From positions 1-64,000 of the forward strand of contig NZ_JAIVFQ010000011.1 in assembly GCF_020829495.1 (NCBI RefSeq): a stretch of 64,000 nucleotides of DNA. The letters are read 5' to 3'. Positions 641 to 63,071 of this stretch are shown piece after piece (within the stretch, counting starts at the first letter, position 1; every line of letters starts with the position of its first letter). The notes beneath the pieces are model-generated. The model saw nothing but the letters and a program-made list of their open reading frames with translations. It searched no databases and had not been told where the DNA came from. This DNA is from Nostoc favosum CHAB5714 (GTDB lineage: Bacteria; Cyanobacteriota; Cyanobacteriia; Cyanobacteriales; Nostocaceae). The position numbers and the translations under genes are program-made.

Positions 641-1075
641 CTTCAGATTTCTAGTCCTTGTGATTACCCCCATTTTTGTAACAGTTAAAGTATCGCAGTG
701 ACGCACATCCCGCCTAGAACTTAAGTTCTAGGCTAATAGCTAAAGTCCACTCAAGTGGACTGAAATTCTTGTTTAGTCCTCTTAAGAGGACTTTAGCTAT
801 TAGCCTTGGAATTTATTCCAAGGCGGGATAACAACGAAGCGGATATTGTCAAATGTAAGTAATGACAAGACTTCTAGGCTGTGGGCTATATAGCGTTTTC
901 TAATCATACAAGGTATATCTTAGCCCTCTCTCGAAGAGCGGGGAAGGGCTTGGGGGTGGAGTTTTGTACTTACTCAACCGAGAACCGCTATATACTTTTT
1001 CTTTCTCGTAGGATCGGTGTCTTGCTCGTCCAAAGGCAAGGATAATTTTAAAATTTTTATATTAATAATAAGTAT
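641..1075. other. Intergenic region with a multi-hairpin element
   Basis: A 435-bp gap between grxC and tadA. Its main content is the four-hairpin element at 709-830, described separately. Around 921-965 is a G-rich stretch resembling the common Nostoc sequence found beside CCAACCCC repeats. No ORF with coding character was seen. Confidence 0.6.
709..830. repeat. Multi-hairpin (cruciform-like) repeat, copy 1
   Basis: Inside outer arms CCCGCCT and AGGCGGGA lie the palindromes TAGAACTTAAGTTCTA, AGTCCACTCAAGTGGACT and AGTCCTCTTAAGAGGACT, and the hairpin GCCTTGGAA-TTTA-TTCCAAGGC. A second-tier pairing joins GGCTAATAGCTAAAGTCC with GGACTTTAGCTATTAGCC. The whole can fold as a multi-arm junction. 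Copy 2 is at 5523-5618. It could be a mobile palindromic repeat or an RNA element. Confidence 0.75.
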
Positions 1076-1561
1076 ATGCTAACTAAATACACAGATTATG
1101 TTATACATCAACAATGGATGAGTTATGCCCTAGAATTAGCAAAAGCAGCAGGTGATGCAGGTGAAGTCCCTGTAGGTGCTGTTATCATTGATTCAACAGG
1201 CAAATTGCTAGCACAAGGAGAAAACAGAAAAGAGCGCGACAAAGACCCCACCGCTCATGCAGAAATTCTCGCTCTCAAAAGAGCTGGAACAACTTTACAA
1301 AACTGGCATCTTAATGAATGCACCCTCTACGTAAATCTCGAACCTTGCCCGATGTGTGCAGGTGCTATCGTCCAAGCGCGTCTAGGACTACTTGTATATG
1401 GAGTAGACGATACAAAAACTGGCGCAATTCGTACAGTTATTAACATACCCGATAGCGCTGCTTCTAATCACCGCTTACAGGTAATTGGAGGCGTTCTAGA
1501 GTCAGCTTGTCGTGAACAATTACAGGCTTGGTTTGCTACTAGGCGGCGTAAGGTAAACTAA
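1076..1561 (+). CDS. tadA: tRNA-specific adenosine deaminase TadA
   Basis: A 161-residue cytidine/deoxycytidylate deaminase-fold enzyme. It should convert A34 to inosine in tRNA-Arg(ACG), allowing wobble decoding of CGN codons. The zinc and proton-shuttle motif HAE is at 61-63 and PCPMC at 90-94, with Cys91 and Cys94 as zinc ligands; the spacing and length fit TadA. The N-terminal VPVGAVIID strand is canonical. An internal ATG at codon 15 (MSYALELAK) is an alternative start that would remove a non-conserved extension. The gene is monocistronic as far as can be seen, with PlsC 116 bp downstream on the same strand. Confidence 0.93.
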   Translation: MLTKYTDYVIHQQWMSYALELAKAAGDAGEVPVGAVIIDSTGKLLAQGENRKERDKDPTAHAEILALKRAGTTLQNWHLNECTLYVNLEPCPMCAGAIVQARLGLLVYGVDDTKTGAIRTVINIPDSAASNHRLQVIGGVLESACREQLQAWFATRRRKVN

Positions 1562-1676
1562 CGGACAGAGGTAAAACTGTCCATCTAGTACCATACAAGT
1601 TACGCAAGAGAATCTACGGTGTAACTAATCAGACTTTTCGTTAAATTTTACCCGTCAATCAGCTGCATCCGTCATC

Positions 1677-2432
1677 ATGGAATTTTACTCTTCATCCGAT
1701 ACCTGCCAGCAGACACCAGCAAATCATCAGGTGGCTGATACTACCTCAAGGGTTTCTCCTTGGTTAAGTCCTCTGGCATATTTATTAGGGCGTCACTGCC
1801 TATTACCATTATTCTTTGGGCAAATTAGCATAACCGGACAAAAAAATATCCCTAGAACTGGGCCTGTGATCTTCGCGCCTACTCATCGGGCGCGTTGGGA
1901 TGCATTGCTCGTACCCTACGCTACGGCTGATTGTCGGAGAGAACAAGACTTGCGGTTTATGGTGACTATTGACGAATGCCAAGGTTTACAAGGCTGGTTT
2001 GTCCGACGTTTGGGGGGGTTTGCTGTAAATTCTAAGCATCCGTCAATCCGCACGCTGCGACATGGAGTTGAGCTACTTCAGCAGAAAAAAACCCTGGTCA
2101 TTTTTCCAGAAGGTAACATTTTTCGTGATGGCCAAGTTCACCAGTTGAAGCCAGGAATTGCTCGTCTTGCTTTGAGTGCTGAATCTAGTCATTCGGGGCT
2201 GGGAGTGAAAATTATACCCATAGGCATTAATTACAGCCAACCTTATCCAAATTGGGGTACAGATGTGAGTATTGACATTGGCTCCCCAATTAGAGTAACC
2301 GATTACATGAGTGGTTGTATAAAACAAGATGCTAAAAGCATCACAACTGATTTAGCAAAGGCACTGCAACAATTAACCTATCAAGAAACAAAAATTTCTA
2401 ATCGCGCATTTGCAGAAATTACTAATTCTTGA
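1677..2432 (+). CDS. 1-acyl-sn-glycerol-3-phosphate acyltransferase (PlsC family)
   Basis: A 251-residue lysophospholipid acyltransferase that would transfer an acyl chain to lysophosphatidate in membrane lipid synthesis. The catalytic HX4D motif is HRARWD (His70, Asp75). The substrate-binding FPEGN motif is at 143-147, followed by the conserved PGIARLA block. The first 30 residues are poorly conserved and carry no signal peptide; a hydrophobic stretch near 31-50 probably sits on the membrane. Cyanobacteria usually carry several PlsC homologues, so the exact acyl donor and acceptor cannot be read from sequence. The gene ends 32 bp from the convergent S74-type gene. Confidence 0.88.
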   Translation: MEFYSSSDTCQQTPANHQVADTTSRVSPWLSPLAYLLGRHCLLPLFFGQISITGQKNIPRTGPVIFAPTHRARWDALLVPYATADCRREQDLRFMVTIDECQGLQGWFVRRLGGFAVNSKHPSIRTLRHGVELLQQKKTLVIFPEGNIFRDGQVHQLKPGIARLALSAESSHSGLGVKIIPIGINYSQPYPNWGTDVSIDIGSPIRVTDYMSGCIKQDAKSITTDLAKALQQLTYQETKISNRAFAEITNS

Positions 2433-2464
2433 TCTTGTCAAACGTACCCTCTAGTTTTACCCTT

Positions 2465-3139
2465 TTAAGTGCTTCGAGCTTCTAGCATCTTTACTTTCTC
2501 AACTAATGTTGCTATGGTCTTCTGCTGCTCTTTCACTACTTTAGTTAGTACAGCTACAATATCCATTGAACTTACTGCCTTTTTGTCAAAAGTTGCCACC
2601 ATGTTCGGAACATCTTCCGCAATAAATCCAGTATGTAGATTTTTTTCACTATCCGCTTTGTAACTAAACTTAACGGGTTGGAGGTCTTCTAATGTCTCAA
2701 TCGCCTCCCGACTGGAAAGTTCAGCAATATTTTCTTTCACTTCCCTTGATGAAGAGGTGAAAAACTGAGTCGCACGAATAATCCCAGTTGTATCAACAGT
2801 GACTTTATCTCCTCCAGACCAGAGGCGAGCTATGCCACCCAATGCATACCAAACCCATCGTTGCCCAGCATTTGGAGTTTCTACAAACTCAGGAGTTTCC
2901 CGATTACCAAAAGAAAAACCACCACCAGCACCACCACTATGAATTTCAGTGCCTCTTACGTCTAGTTTCCGAAAAGGATTTGTTGTTCCAATACCAACAT
3001 TTCCAGATACAAAAAGATTATCCAAATTCCCGGTCTGTGCTTGTGCCCGACCATTTACAATTAAGCTAGTAATTATATTTGCGACAACGAAACCGCCAGT
3101 CACTCCGGCAATTTGACGACGAGAAAGACTATTAGACAT
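2465..3139 (-). CDS. Tail-fibre-like protein with C-terminal S74 chaperone domain and Tat-like signal
   Basis: 224 residues. The start carries a twin-arginine-like signal (SRRQIAG at 6-12, a hydrophobic stretch, then a possible cleavage after GRAQA). A fibre-type motif follows: GNVGIGTTNPFRKLDVRG, common in phage tail fibres and bacterial adhesins. The C-terminal ~95 residues match the intramolecular chaperone/peptidase S74 domain: SSSREVKENI with a Ser...Lys dyad, a HTGFIAEDVP block and a terminal coiled coil. In this family the domain drives trimerisation and then cleaves itself off. No phage genes are nearby, so a secreted host fibre is more likely than a prophage remnant. Partner and role unknown. 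Confidence 0.8.
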   Translation of the reverse strand: MSNSLSRRQIAGVTGGFVVANIITSLIVNGRAQAQTGNLDNLFVSGNVGIGTTNPFRKLDVRGTEIHSGGAGGGFSFGNRETPEFVETPNAGQRWVWYALGGIARLWSGGDKVTVDTTGIIRATQFFTSSSREVKENIAELSSREAIETLEDLQPVKFSYKADSEKNLHTGFIAEDVPNMVATFDKKAVSSMDIVAVLTKVVKEQQKTIATLVEKVKMLEARST

Positions 3140-3792
3140 TTTTTACTTCTAAGCTCCTGCACTAGTTCCATTTTTGCAAGCATCAGTAATTTAACATTAA
3201 TATATACTGCCTTAATCAGAATATTTATTGAGAGATATTCAGATTTTTCACACAAAATCAAGCTATATTAAACTCCAAAAACTAAAAAAATAACTGCGGT
3301 ATACTCACATGTCAAAAATAAAAATTGATGGCAGGGAAGCAGAAGTTCTGATTTAAGGAAGGCTGAAGCTTCTGAATTCTCTTTGCGTCTATGCTAGTTG
3401 AGACTGGGAAGCGTGCTATTTGTCATCTGGCTTACTAAAGTTTTAACTAGTTCCGTGGGTTTAAGTCCCCCGGTTCAATAAAAATTTTGTTTTGTGTTGG
3501 GGTTAAATCCCCATTACAAAACTTAATTACGAATTACGAATTACGAATTACGAATTATTTAATCTTGCTTTGAGAAAACTGCACTGTCAAATATCAAACC
3601 TAACCTGAGATAATTATTAGGGAAAAAAGTCGATAGCCGTAAGGACGGACAGTTGGGAACTCTATTAAACCGATTTTCAGTCTAAATCAAAGAAACTTAG
3701 GATGCGGCTTTGCTTTGTCGAAGACCAAAACAGAGTTAAGATACCCGAAGTTTCCATAACTTTTCTGTATAGTCGTTGCACTACTTGACCCC
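3140..3792. other. Intergenic region with a dispersed repeat
   Basis: A 653-bp divergent gap between the S74 gene and the secreted-protein gene, so it should hold two promoters. AT-rich sequence occupies 3180-3310. The 102-nt dispersed repeat and heptamers (ATTACGA units) occupy 3442-3557. No coding signal was seen. Confidence 0.55.
3442..3557 (+). repeat. 102-nt dispersed repeat, copy 1, ending in ATTACGA heptamers
   Basis: The block starts TTTAACTAGTTCCGTGGG and runs through ACTTAATTACGAATTACGAA. It is identical over about 102 nt to 54972-55074, then continues with extra 7-bp ATTACGA units. Internally TTTAAGTCCCC and GGGGTTAAATCCCC form an imperfect inverted repeat. A degenerate right end (ATTTCGTTACAAAACTAAATT plus heptamers) occurs near 17715-17757. 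Confidence 0.85.
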
Positions 3793-4398
3793 ATGAACAC
3801 TGCTGCCGCTGTTACCTTGATGCACCGTACTTTTTTATCAGTCATAGCAGTCCTCAGCCTGCTATCACCTGTGAATGCTCAGGTATCACAGTCACCAGGC
3901 ACTACTAGTCCAAAACCCATTGACCCTAACGATCCTAATAACCTGCGCCCCATAACCCAAAGTAACAGCCTTTTGAGCATTGAAGGTGGCGATCGCCTCG
4001 TCAAAGAGGCAGAACAAGCCGTTTCTGCTCAAAACTACCCCTTAGCTGCCAAGAAACTGCAAGAAGCACGTCAAGTTTATAATCAGCTATCTAATTTTTA
4101 TCAAGAGTTAAACTCTAGCTTTTCGGGAATTGACAACAGAGTTTCTGATTCTCAGCGTCAAAAAGCTCTATTAACAGCCCAAAAGCGAGATGAAGCCACC
4201 TTTCAGCTAGCATTGGTACATCGGGCACAAAATCAGCCAGAATTAGCTGTACCGTTGTTGATTCAAATAATTAAGAGTCAAAATCCGACGCGGGATTTAG
4301 GCAAGAAAGCCTATAAACAGTTGTTTGAATTGGGTTTTGTTGATTCTGCCTATCCTAGAGAAGGTGGTAGTTCATCTTCCTCATCTCCAAAAAAATAA
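3793..4398 (+). CDS. Secreted helical protein of unknown function
   Basis: 201 residues. An N-terminal signal peptide is visible (hydrophobic LSVIAVLSLLS, cleavage probably after VNA at ~29). A Pro/Asn-rich linker follows (PIDPNDPNNLRP), then an alpha-helical region from about 65 to 185. This resembles one to two TPR-like helix pairs (AEQAVSAQNYPLAAKKLQEARQ; ALVHRAQNQPELAVPLL). The tail is low complexity (GGSSSSSSPKK). An internal ATG at codon 10 (MHRTFLSV) would give a tighter signal peptide. I do not recognise a named family. It would act in the periplasm or at the cell surface. Confidence 0.7.
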   Translation: MNTAAAVTLMHRTFLSVIAVLSLLSPVNAQVSQSPGTTSPKPIDPNDPNNLRPITQSNSLLSIEGGDRLVKEAEQAVSAQNYPLAAKKLQEARQVYNQLSNFYQELNSSFSGIDNRVSDSQRQKALLTAQKRDEATFQLALVHRAQNQPELAVPLLIQIIKSQNPTRDLGKKAYKQLFELGFVDSAYPREGGSSSSSSPKK

Positions 4399-4624
4399 AT
4401 TAAATTTTTCTTGTCTGTTTTTCCCCTGCTCTCAATCTCTCTGAGCAGCAGCTTTAGAACGTCCCAGTGCTACGATAGGATTATCTGCCGTACCTTTGAG
4501 CGATCGTCCTCAAAAATCCACCTCAGAGGTGCGTTTATTTCTAGCCTTGCCAAAACCTGAACTTGGCACAGGCATAGCTCCATATCTGTTAATAATAGAA
4601 AAGTAAGTTTTTTCAGGAATAGCG

Positions 4625-4882
4625 ATGATTAGTCCGCAGCAGGTTGAGGCAATGATCAAGGCGGAACTGCCAGACGCCCAGGTTCAGGTGCAAGACTTGA
4701 CTGGTGGCGGTGACCATTATCAGGTAACAGTAGTTTCATCGCACTTTGCAGGTAAGGGACTAGTGCAACAGCACCAGTTAGTTTATGGTGCTTTGGGGCA
4801 AGCTATGTCAACTGAAGCAATTCATGCTTTGGCAGTAAAAACATATACTCCTGAATCTTGGCAAGCAACACCAGCTTCATAA
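4625..4882 (+). CDS. BolA family protein
   Basis: An 85-residue BolA-like protein. It has the class II KH-like fold and the conserved C-terminal [14 protein letters not shown] motif; His67 is in the region that coordinates a shared Fe-S cluster in BolA-Grx heterodimers. It lies 89 bp upstream of a CGFS monothiol glutaredoxin on the same strand. This arrangement occurs in many cyanobacteria and other bacteria and matches the known physical BolA-Grx partnership in iron-sulfur trafficking and iron sensing. The start ATG is preceded by AGGAATAGCG, a reasonable ribosome site. A transcription-regulator role, as proposed for E. coli BolA, cannot be judged here. Confidence 0.9.
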
Positions 4883-4971
4883 ACATAGAGTTAGGAATTA
4901 GGGGTTAGGAGTTATAAATTTTTAACTTCTCACTCGTCATCGTTGAATGTAACATAGGAAACACAAATACC

Positions 4972-5298
4972 ATGACACCAGAACTCAAAGAGAAAATTGA
5001 TAACTTGCTACAACAGAACAAGATTTTGGTTTTCATGAAGGGAAATAAGTTAATGCCCCAATGTGGTTTCTCCAACAACGTTGTGCAGATTCTCAATACT
5101 TTGGGAGTTCCCTTCGAGACAATTGACGTTCTATCAGACTCTGAAATCCGCCAGGGAATTAAAGAATACTCTAACTGGCCGACAATTCCCCAAGTGTATA
5201 TCGATGGTGAATTCGTTGGCGGTTCTGACATTTTGATTGAACTGTACCAAAAAGGTGAATTGCAGGAAAAGGTAGAAGTAGCACTAGCCTCGTCGTAA
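4972..5298 (+). CDS. grxD: Monothiol glutaredoxin, CGFS type (Grx4-like)
   Basis: A 108-residue monothiol glutaredoxin with the CGFS active site at residues 31-34 and the preceding FMKGNKLMPQ loop. This is the signature of Grx4/Grx5-type proteins that bind a [2Fe-2S] cluster with glutathione. The WPTIPQVYIDGEFVGGSDI block holds the cis-proline and GSH-binding GG. It acts in Fe-S cluster transfer rather than general thiol reduction. It follows the BolA gene and is probably co-transcribed with it. A clear intrinsic terminator lies at 5375-5422. Confidence 0.95.
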   Translation: MTPELKEKIDNLLQQNKILVFMKGNKLMPQCGFSNNVVQILNTLGVPFETIDVLSDSEIRQGIKEYSNWPTIPQVYIDGEFVGGSDILIELYQKGELQEKVEVALASS

Positions 5299-5374
5299 TA
5301 TTTCTTTACGCCAACCAGAAGGTATGCTGCTAAATTTGCGCTTCGCAATCAAGGCAATTTGCCATTTTTAACAT

Positions 5375-5422
5375 CCTTGAAAGGTCAGAGAAATAGTATC
5401 TCCCCTTTCAAGGGTTTTTTTT
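5375..5422 (+). terminator. Rho-independent terminator after the bolA-grxD pair
   Basis: The stem CCTTGAAAGG (5375-5384) pairs with CCTTTCAAGG (5404-5413) around a 19-nt loop. A run of eight T follows. It lies 77 bp past the glutaredoxin stop, on the transcribed strand. Confidence 0.85.
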
Positions 5423-5522
5423 AATGGGTTTGTGAAAAAATACCTGTGTTGGGATTGATAAATTTATATCTTGCACCTGCCCAATCTCCTGTCAAGAAAT
5501 AAATTTCACAGGCTTTTTGTCC

Positions 5523-5618
5523 AAGTCCACTCAAGTGGACTAATATCCATGCCACTAATAGGGTTTAGTCCTCTTGAGAGGACTTTAGCTGTTAGCCATA
5601 GGTTTCTAACCTATGGCG
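5523..5618. repeat. Multi-hairpin repeat, copy 2
   Basis: It shares AGTCCACTCAAGTGGACT and TTTAGTCCTCTT-AGAGGACTTTAGCT-TTAGCC with copy 1 at 709-830. Its last hairpin is GCCATAGGTT-TCT-AACCTATGGC, where copy 1 has GCCTTGGAA-TTTA-TTCCAAGGC. The stem sequence has changed but pairing is kept on both sides. Confidence 0.75.
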
Positions 5619-5752
5619 GTTTCTGGGACTAGTGCAAGATATAAGTAAAGAGTTTTTGGTACATACCTCGCCCCTTGTGGGCGAAAAAAACTAATAGATT
5701 AGGACTAATTCAAACCACGTCAAAGAGTGGGCGTAGTATCTCTTGGACTAAT

Positions 5753-5825
5753 GACAAATGACAAATGACAAATGACTAATGACTAATGACAAATGACTAA
5801 TGACTAATGACTAATGACTAATGAC
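5753..5825. repeat. Heptanucleotide array (ACAAATG / ACTAATG)
   Basis: About ten 7-bp units, mixing ACAAATG and ACTAATG, in the gap between convergent genes. Typical of the short tandemly repeated sequences of Nostocales. Confidence 0.9.
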
Positions 5826-6035
5826 TCTCGCGTTGCGCGTTGCGGTTTGATTTCATAGATAGTCAACAATCCCCTCAGTCGCATTGGCAAGACCAATATA
5901 AGGCTGAGGGGATGCGTTTTATCAATACAATATCTCCAAAATCTCACACCACAGTATCAGTTGACCAATACAGATAATATGCTATGCTCATCTGCGGTAA
6001 TTAACGGTTACTATCAACGACTAGGTAAATAGTAC

Positions 6036-10598: not shown

Positions 10599-11189
10599 AA
10601 CTGCTGAGGAGCTTTACGCCACAATTTTACATTACACTACCCAAGCCTAGCATTGCCTGATCCCCAGTTGCTGTAGCTCCGACTACCAACTGAACTTTTG
10701 TAGATTATTTTTTCCTTAAGATATATCGCAGGTTATAAAAAATTTGTAAATATTTATGCGTTGTCTGCAATTTTACACTATAAGAACATCTTTGAGTTTT
10801 TAATCTCTGGCAAAAAAGCTTTAACTTCTTTAGGGCAGATAACTCTAAGGTAGGTATAGCGAAGATCCCCTTAGATTGAGCCTAGTTCAAGAATGTATTT
10901 TTGTGTTTCATCTATCCCAGGATTAAAAGCCTGGGATCATCGCTTAATCAATGAACTCGATGTTATCGTAAAGCTATATGAAAAATGTCTTCATAAAGCC
11001 TCTCTTGATGCCATGCGTTTGCTATGGAAAGCAATTTTATTGATTCCTACATCTGTGAACAACAAAAAAATTCAATTATATCAATAATTTGCTTCCATGT
11101 CAAGCAATATTGTCAAAAATTAAGAGCAGCCAAAACAAAAACACGCTTTAAAACTGGAATTTATCTCGCTTTCCCCAAAGATTGGCAAG
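10599..11189. other. Divergent intergenic region
   Basis: 591 bp between the DUF1830 gene (-) and the radical SAM gene (+), expected to hold both promoters. It is AT-rich. Two short overlapping plus-strand ORFs at 10893-11248 have no conserved features and unusual composition, so they are not called. Confidence 0.5.
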
Positions 11190-62997: not shown

Positions 62998-63071
62998 CGG
63001 GATGTAGCGCAGCTTGGTAGCGCGCCTGCTTTGGGAGCAGGATGCCGCAGGTTCAAATCCTGTCATCCCGA
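62998..63071 (+). tRNA. tRNA-Pro (anticodon UGG)
   Basis: A 74-nt cloverleaf. The acceptor CGGGATG pairs with CATCCCG, the D stem GCGC pairs with GCGC around AGCTTGGTA, the anticodon stem CCTGC pairs with GCAGG with loop TTTGGGA (anticodon TGG), and the T arm is GCAGG-TTCAAAT-CCTGT with one G-T pair. Discriminator A. The 3' CCA is not encoded, as is usual in cyanobacteria. Confidence 0.97.

Follow-up and report, generated by a model that had tools for sequence, protein, structure and literature searches.

A dispersed double-hairpin repeat of Nostoc and its probable partnership with a Y1 (HUH) transposase

Results

The window analysed here, a 64,000-nucleotide stretch of Nostoc favosum CHAB5714 (contig NZ_JAIVFQ010000011.1, positions 1 to 64,000), holds two copies of a multi-hairpin element. 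Both are intergenic, both lie directly 3′ of glutaredoxin-like genes, and each consists of two ∼83-nt units in inverted orientation. In what follows we describe this double-hairpin unit, its dispersal, and its association with a gene for a Y1 (HUH) transposase at locus L118 of the same genome.

Copy 1 forms one large inverted repeat with arms at 707–764 and 772–829 that are 81% complementary. Its left unit (680–761, forward strand, 88.6 bits against model R1, described below) comprises hairpin 1 (GCCTAGAAC-TTAA-GTTCTAGGC, 712–733), the linker TAATAGCTAA (734–743), which joins the two hairpins and is kept across genomes, as seen in the unit consensus, and hairpin 2, the 18-nt palindrome AGTCCACTCAAGTGGACT (744–761), which was also followed by string search through the genome. 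The right unit lies on the reverse strand (775–857, 89.0 bits), with hairpin 2 (AGTCCTCTTAAGAGGACT) at 775–792 and hairpin 1 (GCCTTGGAATTTATTCCAAGGC) at 803–824. A scan of the outer ends placed inverted repeats of the form that we call beta at 657–668 (CTTGTGATTACC, forward) and 858–869 (AGTAATGACAAG, reverse). Immediately outside these is a ten-base direct repeat (ATTTCTAGTC at 647–656, ACTTCTAGGC at 870–879), a possible target duplication that is imperfect: its 2/10 mismatches place it below our criterion for a duplication, and the orthologous copy of genome G025 (L166) has 1/10.

Copy 2 is more diverged on its left side, where the unit (5458–5541, forward) scores 58.8 bits, the lowest of the four window units; the right unit (5567–5650, reverse) scores 74.7 bits. 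Hairpin 1 of the left unit was recognised by eye at about 5488–5512 (CCTGT..ACAGG with an inner GAAAT..ATTTC) and is followed by hairpin 2, again AGTCCACTCAAGTGGACT, at 5524–5541. In the right unit hairpin 2 occupies 5567–5584 and hairpin 1 (GCCATAGGTTTCTAACCTATGGC) 5595–5617. An inverted-repeat search found perfect 13-nt repeats of delta form at the ends, TTATATCTTGCAC at 5464–5476 (forward) and GTGCAAGATATAA at 5632–5644 (reverse); no target duplication was found around them. The right-hand hairpins 2 of the two copies share the form AGTCCTCTT[A/G]AGAGGACT, whereas the last hairpins, GCCTTGGAATTTATTCCAAGGC and GCCATAGGTTTCTAACCTATGGC, differ in their letters and yet pair completely in both copies. 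A weak third match to the unit (10883–10952, forward, 23.2 bits, E 8e-6) is probably a decayed half.

A preliminary description of the window had placed the element at 709–830 and 5523–5618. Re-reading the sequence bore out the letters of both hairpin clusters, the shared palindrome, the hairpin positions and the full pairing of the dissimilar last hairpins. The limits proved too short once the hairpin at 712–733 and the outer repeats of copy 1, which are of a MITE type (see below), and the left hairpin and terminal repeats of copy 2, are taken into account. Among 30 loci of the genus corresponding to the site of copy 1, six carry a complete pair and four a partial one; an empty site is not definable there because the relatives without units are too diverged.

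Structure and distribution of the unit

Read from the outside inwards, the unit consists of an outer flank, CCCGCC, hairpin 1 (GCC..TNAA..GGC), a 10-nt linker with the core TNATAGC, and hairpin 2 (AGTC..TNAA..GACT); two such units face each other in each element. Model R1 was built from 47 units (alignment A1), namely 46 of 53 halves, near-duplicates having been dropped, plus one window unit. A search with R1 returned at least 150 units in the 8.5-Mb genome of N. favosum, and units were found in 52 of the 59 genomes searched (its own genome counted) and in 123 of the 195 genomes of a sample of the order (E <= 1e-8). In the plasmid database PLSDB a single record, from Allocoleopsis franciscana, carries a unit pair. 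A second alignment, A2, holds the best 150 of 206 unit matches from other genomes, 143 of them distinct. Across these 143 units the unpaired positions that hardly vary are three in each four-base loop (T, A and A) and those of the linker's T-A-T-A-G-C, together with the AGTC foot; stem positions 80–82 and 41–46 are variable. The count of distinct forms is 95 for hairpin 1 and 53 for hairpin 2.

Neither the folding nor the frequency of these sequences is what chance would produce. Folded as single-stranded DNA, copy 1 has z = -11.0 and copy 2 z = -4.8, and none of 200 shuffles equalled either; the 18-nt palindrome occurs 36 times in the genome (19 forward, 17 reverse), as against no occurrence of the same string read backwards.

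Units also occur in tandem arrays together with flanking sequence (G000:C164:285503-286604, comprising L040–L044; L150; L154), with periods of 231 bp, ∼95 bp and 245 bp; these resemble the arrays of repetitive extragenic palindromic (REP) sequences known as bacterial interspersed mosaic elements.

Covariation in the hairpin stems

In A1, drawn from the window's own genome, 95.7% of pair cells are paired (716 paired, 4 G–T, 13 A–C and 19 other), and 110 cells carry a double change, as against 38.5 after shuffling, while one-sided changes occur in only three cells. In A2, whose fitting to the structure works in its favour, the paired fraction is 95.6%. Its 487 double-change cells compare with 136.2 ± 8.5 in shuffled alignments (0 of 500 shuffles were as high), and its covariation score of 0.562 with 0.152 after shuffling and at most 0.085 in controls in which the partner was slid; further pair types are not above shuffles (30 versus 34.0). 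Compensatory change in the stems, as the preliminary description had proposed, is thus real and strong. Neither of the two outcomes held to count against that description, a lack of further copies and stem changes without compensation, was found.

Selection is not implied by compensatory change alone, because hairpins can also be corrected by template switching during DNA replication (described in the accessible part of PMC8794818). Covariation without selection, with template switching or copying between arms repairing imperfect palindromes, is a reading that agrees with several features of the data: the process is known, and the double changes of both alignments far exceed the single-step intermediates. 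Moreover, whole stems have been exchanged between near-identical copies of the gamma form (see below): the right hairpin 2 of L261 is, by comparison with L243, the reverse complement of its left one, which suggests that templated correction contributes to the covariation. On the other side stand the loops, linker and hairpin feet, whose conservation across genomes requires selection or a recent common spread, and the mismatches that are present in 111 of the 2288 pair cells of A2. As a full account of the covariation, repair without selection is possible, if rather doubtful; it is also compatible with recognition of the unit by an enzyme.

The preliminary description had left a choice between an RNA element and a cruciform recognised by a transposase. 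A transcribed element (a riboregulator, small RNA or processing site) kept for its RNA fold would account for strong covariation and for the position of both window copies between genes and downstream of glutaredoxin-like genes. The pairing fits RNA poorly, however. The 2288 cells of A2 comprise 2177 paired, 11 G–T, 36 A–C and 64 other, so that no tolerance of wobble pairs is evident, although the comparison of G–U with A–C is a weak one for selection on RNA because the unit halves run in opposite sense; a tRNA control, itself weak with six tRNAs only, gave G–T in 3 of 125 cells. Since the halves are inverted, one transcript would carry them in opposite sense; inverted arms are found in every orientation, and the occupancy of sites differs among close relatives. 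No Rfam family reached its gathering threshold at either copy in a scan of the window, the sole match being a tRNA at 62998–63071. We consider an RNA element highly improbable. The cruciform fits better, for units flank a Y1 gene (next section). With units read from the outer end inwards, A–C cells in A2 are three times as frequent as G–T cells.

The least credible of the explanations considered is that the hairpins are transcription terminators or mRNA stabilisers, useful to the host and spread by gene conversion. Both window copies do lie 3′ of genes, but a run of T after the hairpins was not seen, and neither the target duplications that accompany movement nor the association with a transposase gene would be expected.

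Association with a Y1 transposase gene

The genome of N. favosum has 21 places that match the Y1_Tnp domain, pieces of single genes included. One of these, L118, is flanked by units to the left and right, in facing orientation; the other 20 have none. The same arrangement recurs in other genomes. The unit is present in 30 of 30 loci with homologous genes from the order sample, and nhmmer found it in 43 of 43 loci of the group of genes that we call clade A, on both sides in 29. Among 80 loci from named genomes (the best 80 of 160 confirmed; 77 are cyanobacterial) it is present in 79, a count based on reading by eye the 300 of 382 matches listed and on additional matches to a covariance model; nhmmer alone gives 77. 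The three sets overlap in part, and some of the 80 loci come from metagenome bins labelled Chloroflexi, Parabeggiatoa and KSB1, whose binning may be wrong. The density of units in the window's own genome (150 in 8.5 Mb) would predict ∼0.06 units per 3.4-kb locus.

Units occur in 44 of 44 genomes with a clade A gene, compared with 79 of the 151 remaining genomes (p 5e-11 by Fisher's test), and at least ten units in 37 of the 44, compared with 37 of the 151 (p 1e-12); the genomes are related, so these p values are not exact. The 44 genomes were assigned to clade A by an identity of at least 43%, four of them through partial matches, and 17 further genomes have weaker relatives only.

The gene at L118:1495-1935 encodes a 147-amino acid Y1 (HUH) protein, of IS200/IS605 type according to both NCBIfam and Pfam (86 bits against NF033573, IS200-type transposase, cut-off 55), that resembles the transposases of ISDra2 and IS608. 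The AlphaFold model of a homologue (mean predicted local distance difference test score 83) aligns with the IS608 transposase in complex with hairpin DNA with Z 14.9 and a root-mean-square deviation of 2.0 over 106 residues, and with E. coli RayT with Z 10.8. Clade A, and a second group, clade B (37–40% identity, same Y motif; L207–L212), share the motifs NHIH or DHIH, WQ and Y---Q--HH; the L118 protein has NHIH, many others DHIH.

These features point to subclass 1.2 of Quentin et al. (2018, PMC6006769). As given in the accessible part of that paper, the subclass is defined by DH[IV]H, WQ and Y---Q--HH, has members of ∼148 amino acids in Cyanobacteria and Bacteroidetes, occurs in low copy number and generally lacks end structures of IS200 type; in its table the entry for REP is ‘no’. 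The L118 clade agrees in its HuH, WQ and Y---Q--HH motifs, in length and in having mostly one match per genome. In a phylogenetic tree clade A is a single clade (98/100), and A, B and IS200 are separated from RayT (96/98); finer placement is unsure because the RayT branch is long. Assignment of L118 to the canonical REP-associated tyrosine transposases (RAYTs, class 2) was considered and rejected: the Y---NP motif is absent, and profile and tree disagree with it. The RAYT profile NF047646 gave no match to L118, and two relatives scored 26.9 and 25.0 bits against a cut-off of 80 (E. coli RayT scores 179).

The clade A gene is mostly single-copy, held at one orthologous site and under purifying selection. 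Its flanks are orthologous in L134 and L194–L198 (88–93% identity, five other Nostoc genomes; L199 reaches the edge of its contig), and in a second group (L200–L206) the gene occupies one shared site in seven genomes, in which the number of units beside it varies though the site is identical. Fifteen pairwise comparisons of six clade A genes gave ratios of nonsynonymous to synonymous substitution of 0.09–0.42. Several near-identical, moving copies of the gene, as expected of an IS200/IS605 element, were not found for clade A. A fixed site together with purifying selection is the pattern described, in the accessible part of PMC8266576, for TnpA-REP (RAYT) genes.

Both window copies are members of a mobile, non-coding repeat family that is scattered through many genomes. 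Taken together, these data suggest that its double-hairpin unit is probably the REP-like partner of the Y1 (HUH) transposase of subclass 1.2.

Outer ends and mobility

Around the unit pair four kinds of outer end were recognised in the window's own genome: alpha (CTACGGTGTACACACAAG), beta (CTTGTCATTACC), gamma (CAGGGCTATTTC[AG]TTCT) and delta ([T]TATATCTTGCAC). Duplications of 9–12 bp flank 5 of the 13 alpha forms, 3 of the 6 beta forms and none of the 3 delta forms. Of 23 gamma-ended elements read, 21 contain a unit pair, one (L259) has another interior, and one (L273:573-1755) is a 1183-bp element of the ISAs1 family with its transposase broken into two reading frames. The last matched a permissive pattern for the unit but was counted as lacking it, its contig being absent from the 150 unit places scored. 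Many Nostoc copies have outer inverted repeats accompanied by target duplications of 8–12 bp and thus moved as miniature inverted-repeat transposable elements (MITEs) of the DDE type, and that part of the Nostoc unit pairs moved in this cut-and-paste fashion is an observation. Terminal repeats shared with an insertion sequence (IS), combined with target duplication, are established for the gamma form, and only for that form are the element boundaries proven by empty sites.

Several findings weigh against a part for the Y1 enzyme in all this. A search with joined flanks as queries (16 loci) found empty sites for at least two, and for two gamma insertions, with ends of ISAs1 type, other Nostoc genomes show the site cleanly empty, the duplications being of 9 bp (AGTGAATAT, GTAGCACAG). 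Duplications of 8–10 bp flank 18 of the 21 unit-bearing gamma copies, compared with 2 of 2000 flank pairs taken at random. IS200-type enzymes join DNA without target duplication. No insertion of Y1 type was caught, both empty sites being of the duplicated kind, and neither a guide nor a cleavage site was identified. The 37 genomes that hold ten or more units but no clade A gene count on the same side, as does the sequence of hairpin 2 beside L118 (AGTCAGC..GCTGACT), which differs from the commonest dispersed copies of its own genome. Finally, the clade B genes match R1 only once each and weakly (16.7–25.5 bits).

An alternative built on these findings is that the copies are plain DDE MITEs, the hairpin pair being a mere MITE interior and its proximity to Y1 genes a matter of hitchhiking or of an insertion hotspot, with no role for the Y1 enzyme. 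The duplications around gamma, beta and alpha copies, the two empty sites, the ISAs1-type ends, the ISAs1-family relative with identical ends in the same genome and the many unit-rich genomes without the gene all speak for it. It is nevertheless unlikely, for three reasons. Genes of the Y1 clade have units beside them in 30 of 30 and 79 of 80 loci, and outer inverted repeats are usually missing there: repeats scoring at least 12 surround 4 of the 42 and 12 of the 88 pairs beside the gene in other genera, whereas among dispersed Nostoc pairs the figure is 24 of 59. At least four different sets of outer ends enclose one and the same unit, which is not expected of an interior derived from one IS. 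And clade B genes have the same architecture in other letters, with inverted double hairpins of their own on both sides and the linker GGCTACACAGACGAA, as judged by eye.

A first impression that clade B genes are without such flanks (0 of 6 by nhmmer) was rejected, the covariance model giving one weak match for each; with these matches and double hairpins of its own, clade B is not usable as a clean negative control. In the genome of N. favosum no clade B gene was matched at E <= 1e-15, and five places resemble the clade B unit at up to two mismatches.

Other features adjoin the elements. Beside copy 1, at 893–986, is a second, unrelated small insertion with ends GCGTTTTC..GAGAACCGC; it is missing from the G025 locus, which is otherwise 97–100% identical and where GCTATATA occurs once, and a sequence resembling it sits inside the element of L029. 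Short tandem repeats occupy 1–57 and 5746–5826 of the window (CCGAATTCAATAAATGACCAC; ATGACTA/ATGACAA heptamers), and short tandem repeats of host sequence adjoin several delta-like or gene-bearing copies (L008, L014, L016, L025, L031 and the right side of L134). A solitary ACTTGTGTGTACACGGTAGC at 183–202, near the left window edge, resembles the alpha outer end.

Discussion

Y1 enzymes of the IS200/IS605 family bind single-stranded DNA hairpins. By analogy with REPtrons, in which TnpA-REP is paired with REPs, the subclass 1.2 enzyme may bind the double-hairpin unit as folded single-stranded DNA, reading its shape, loops and linker. It would cut and join the unit, and so would have spread it, or may be spreading it still, as has been proposed for REPs and TnpA-REP. 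The enzyme's need for a paired stem would then be one reason for the covariation. Such a pattern is consistent with an enzyme that recognises the DNA strand in folded form, but it can also arise when palindromes are corrected from a template. In Nostoc the unit pair appears to have been captured between the ends of other elements, in one form of ISAs1 type, and then to ride within DDE MITEs. This account in two layers is the simplest one, and it covers the link with the gene, the unit-rich genomes that lack it, and the target duplications.

A stronger version of the same account is that subclass 1.2 represents an independent invention of the REPtron within the IS200 lineage. Its enzyme would be domesticated, fixed at one site and able to recognise double hairpins by shape, loops and linker; its palindromic cassette would have been captured by several unrelated DDE elements, so that a repeat of single-stranded DNA now spreads by double-strand cut-and-paste as well, without its own enzyme. 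We put this forward tentatively, as a little short of an even chance.

Should the partnership hold, an orphan group of HUH enzymes from cyanobacteria (and from three other lineages represented by metagenome bins) gains a DNA partner, REP-like systems will have arisen on the IS200 side as well, and a large class of intergenic palindromes in the Nostocales is explained. The unit is, besides, a natural system in which to study why hairpin stems covary in DNA, with selection by an enzyme set against templated correction.

Small repeats of the Nostocales reportedly include the Nezha MITE, the small dispersed repeats attributed to Elhai in 2008 and the MITEs of Anabaena PCC 7120 attributed to Wolk in 2010. 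Our literature searches, which did not cover these three, returned no account of the unit family or of a partner for subclass 1.2; earlier descriptions of the repeats without a link to an enzyme are possible. Six palindrome strings had no match in the searchable texts of papers. For Anabaena sp. 90 the accessible part of PMC3542288 describes 147 MITEs without a matching IS.

Among the known systems most like the one described here is the REPtron, with its TnpA-REP (RAYT) enzyme: both combine a single-copy, site-fixed Y1 gene with dispersed palindromic units that often occur as inverted pairs and form arrays (according to the accessible parts of PMC6006769 and PMC8266576). The two differ in that the L118 clade falls with IS200 in the tree, apart from RayT, and carries Y---Q--HH where RAYTs have Y---NP, and in that its unit has two hairpins and a length of ∼83 nt, compared with 20–40 nt for REPs. 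Nor does the consensus of the 143 units show a GT[AG]G tetranucleotide at either hairpin foot. REPINs likewise consist of two palindromic units, inverted and at short spacing, but here the units are not the REPs of a RAYT. The GTAG-15 REP dimers of Anabaena variabilis (PMC3733652) are similar in that a REP pair is nested within a larger cyanobacterial palindromic repeat; they are GTAG-tagged single hairpins, however, and the letters given in the accessible part of that paper do not match the unit.

With ISAs1-family MITEs the gamma form shares ISAs1-type ends and 9-bp duplications, but its interior is the double-hairpin unit pair, which is not derived from the IS and is common to forms with other ends. 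With IS200/IS605 elements the clade A system shares the catalytic domain, the fold and the presence of hairpins on both sides of the gene; in contrast, its ends are inverted double hairpins, and the gene is neither multi-copy nor mobile among the orthologous genomes examined. Subclass 1.2 is alike in the enzyme itself, with the same signatures, a length of ∼148 amino acids, low copy number and occurrence in cyanobacteria: whereas the accessible part of PMC6006769 lists no REP for it, the cyanobacterial members examined here have a hairpin partner.

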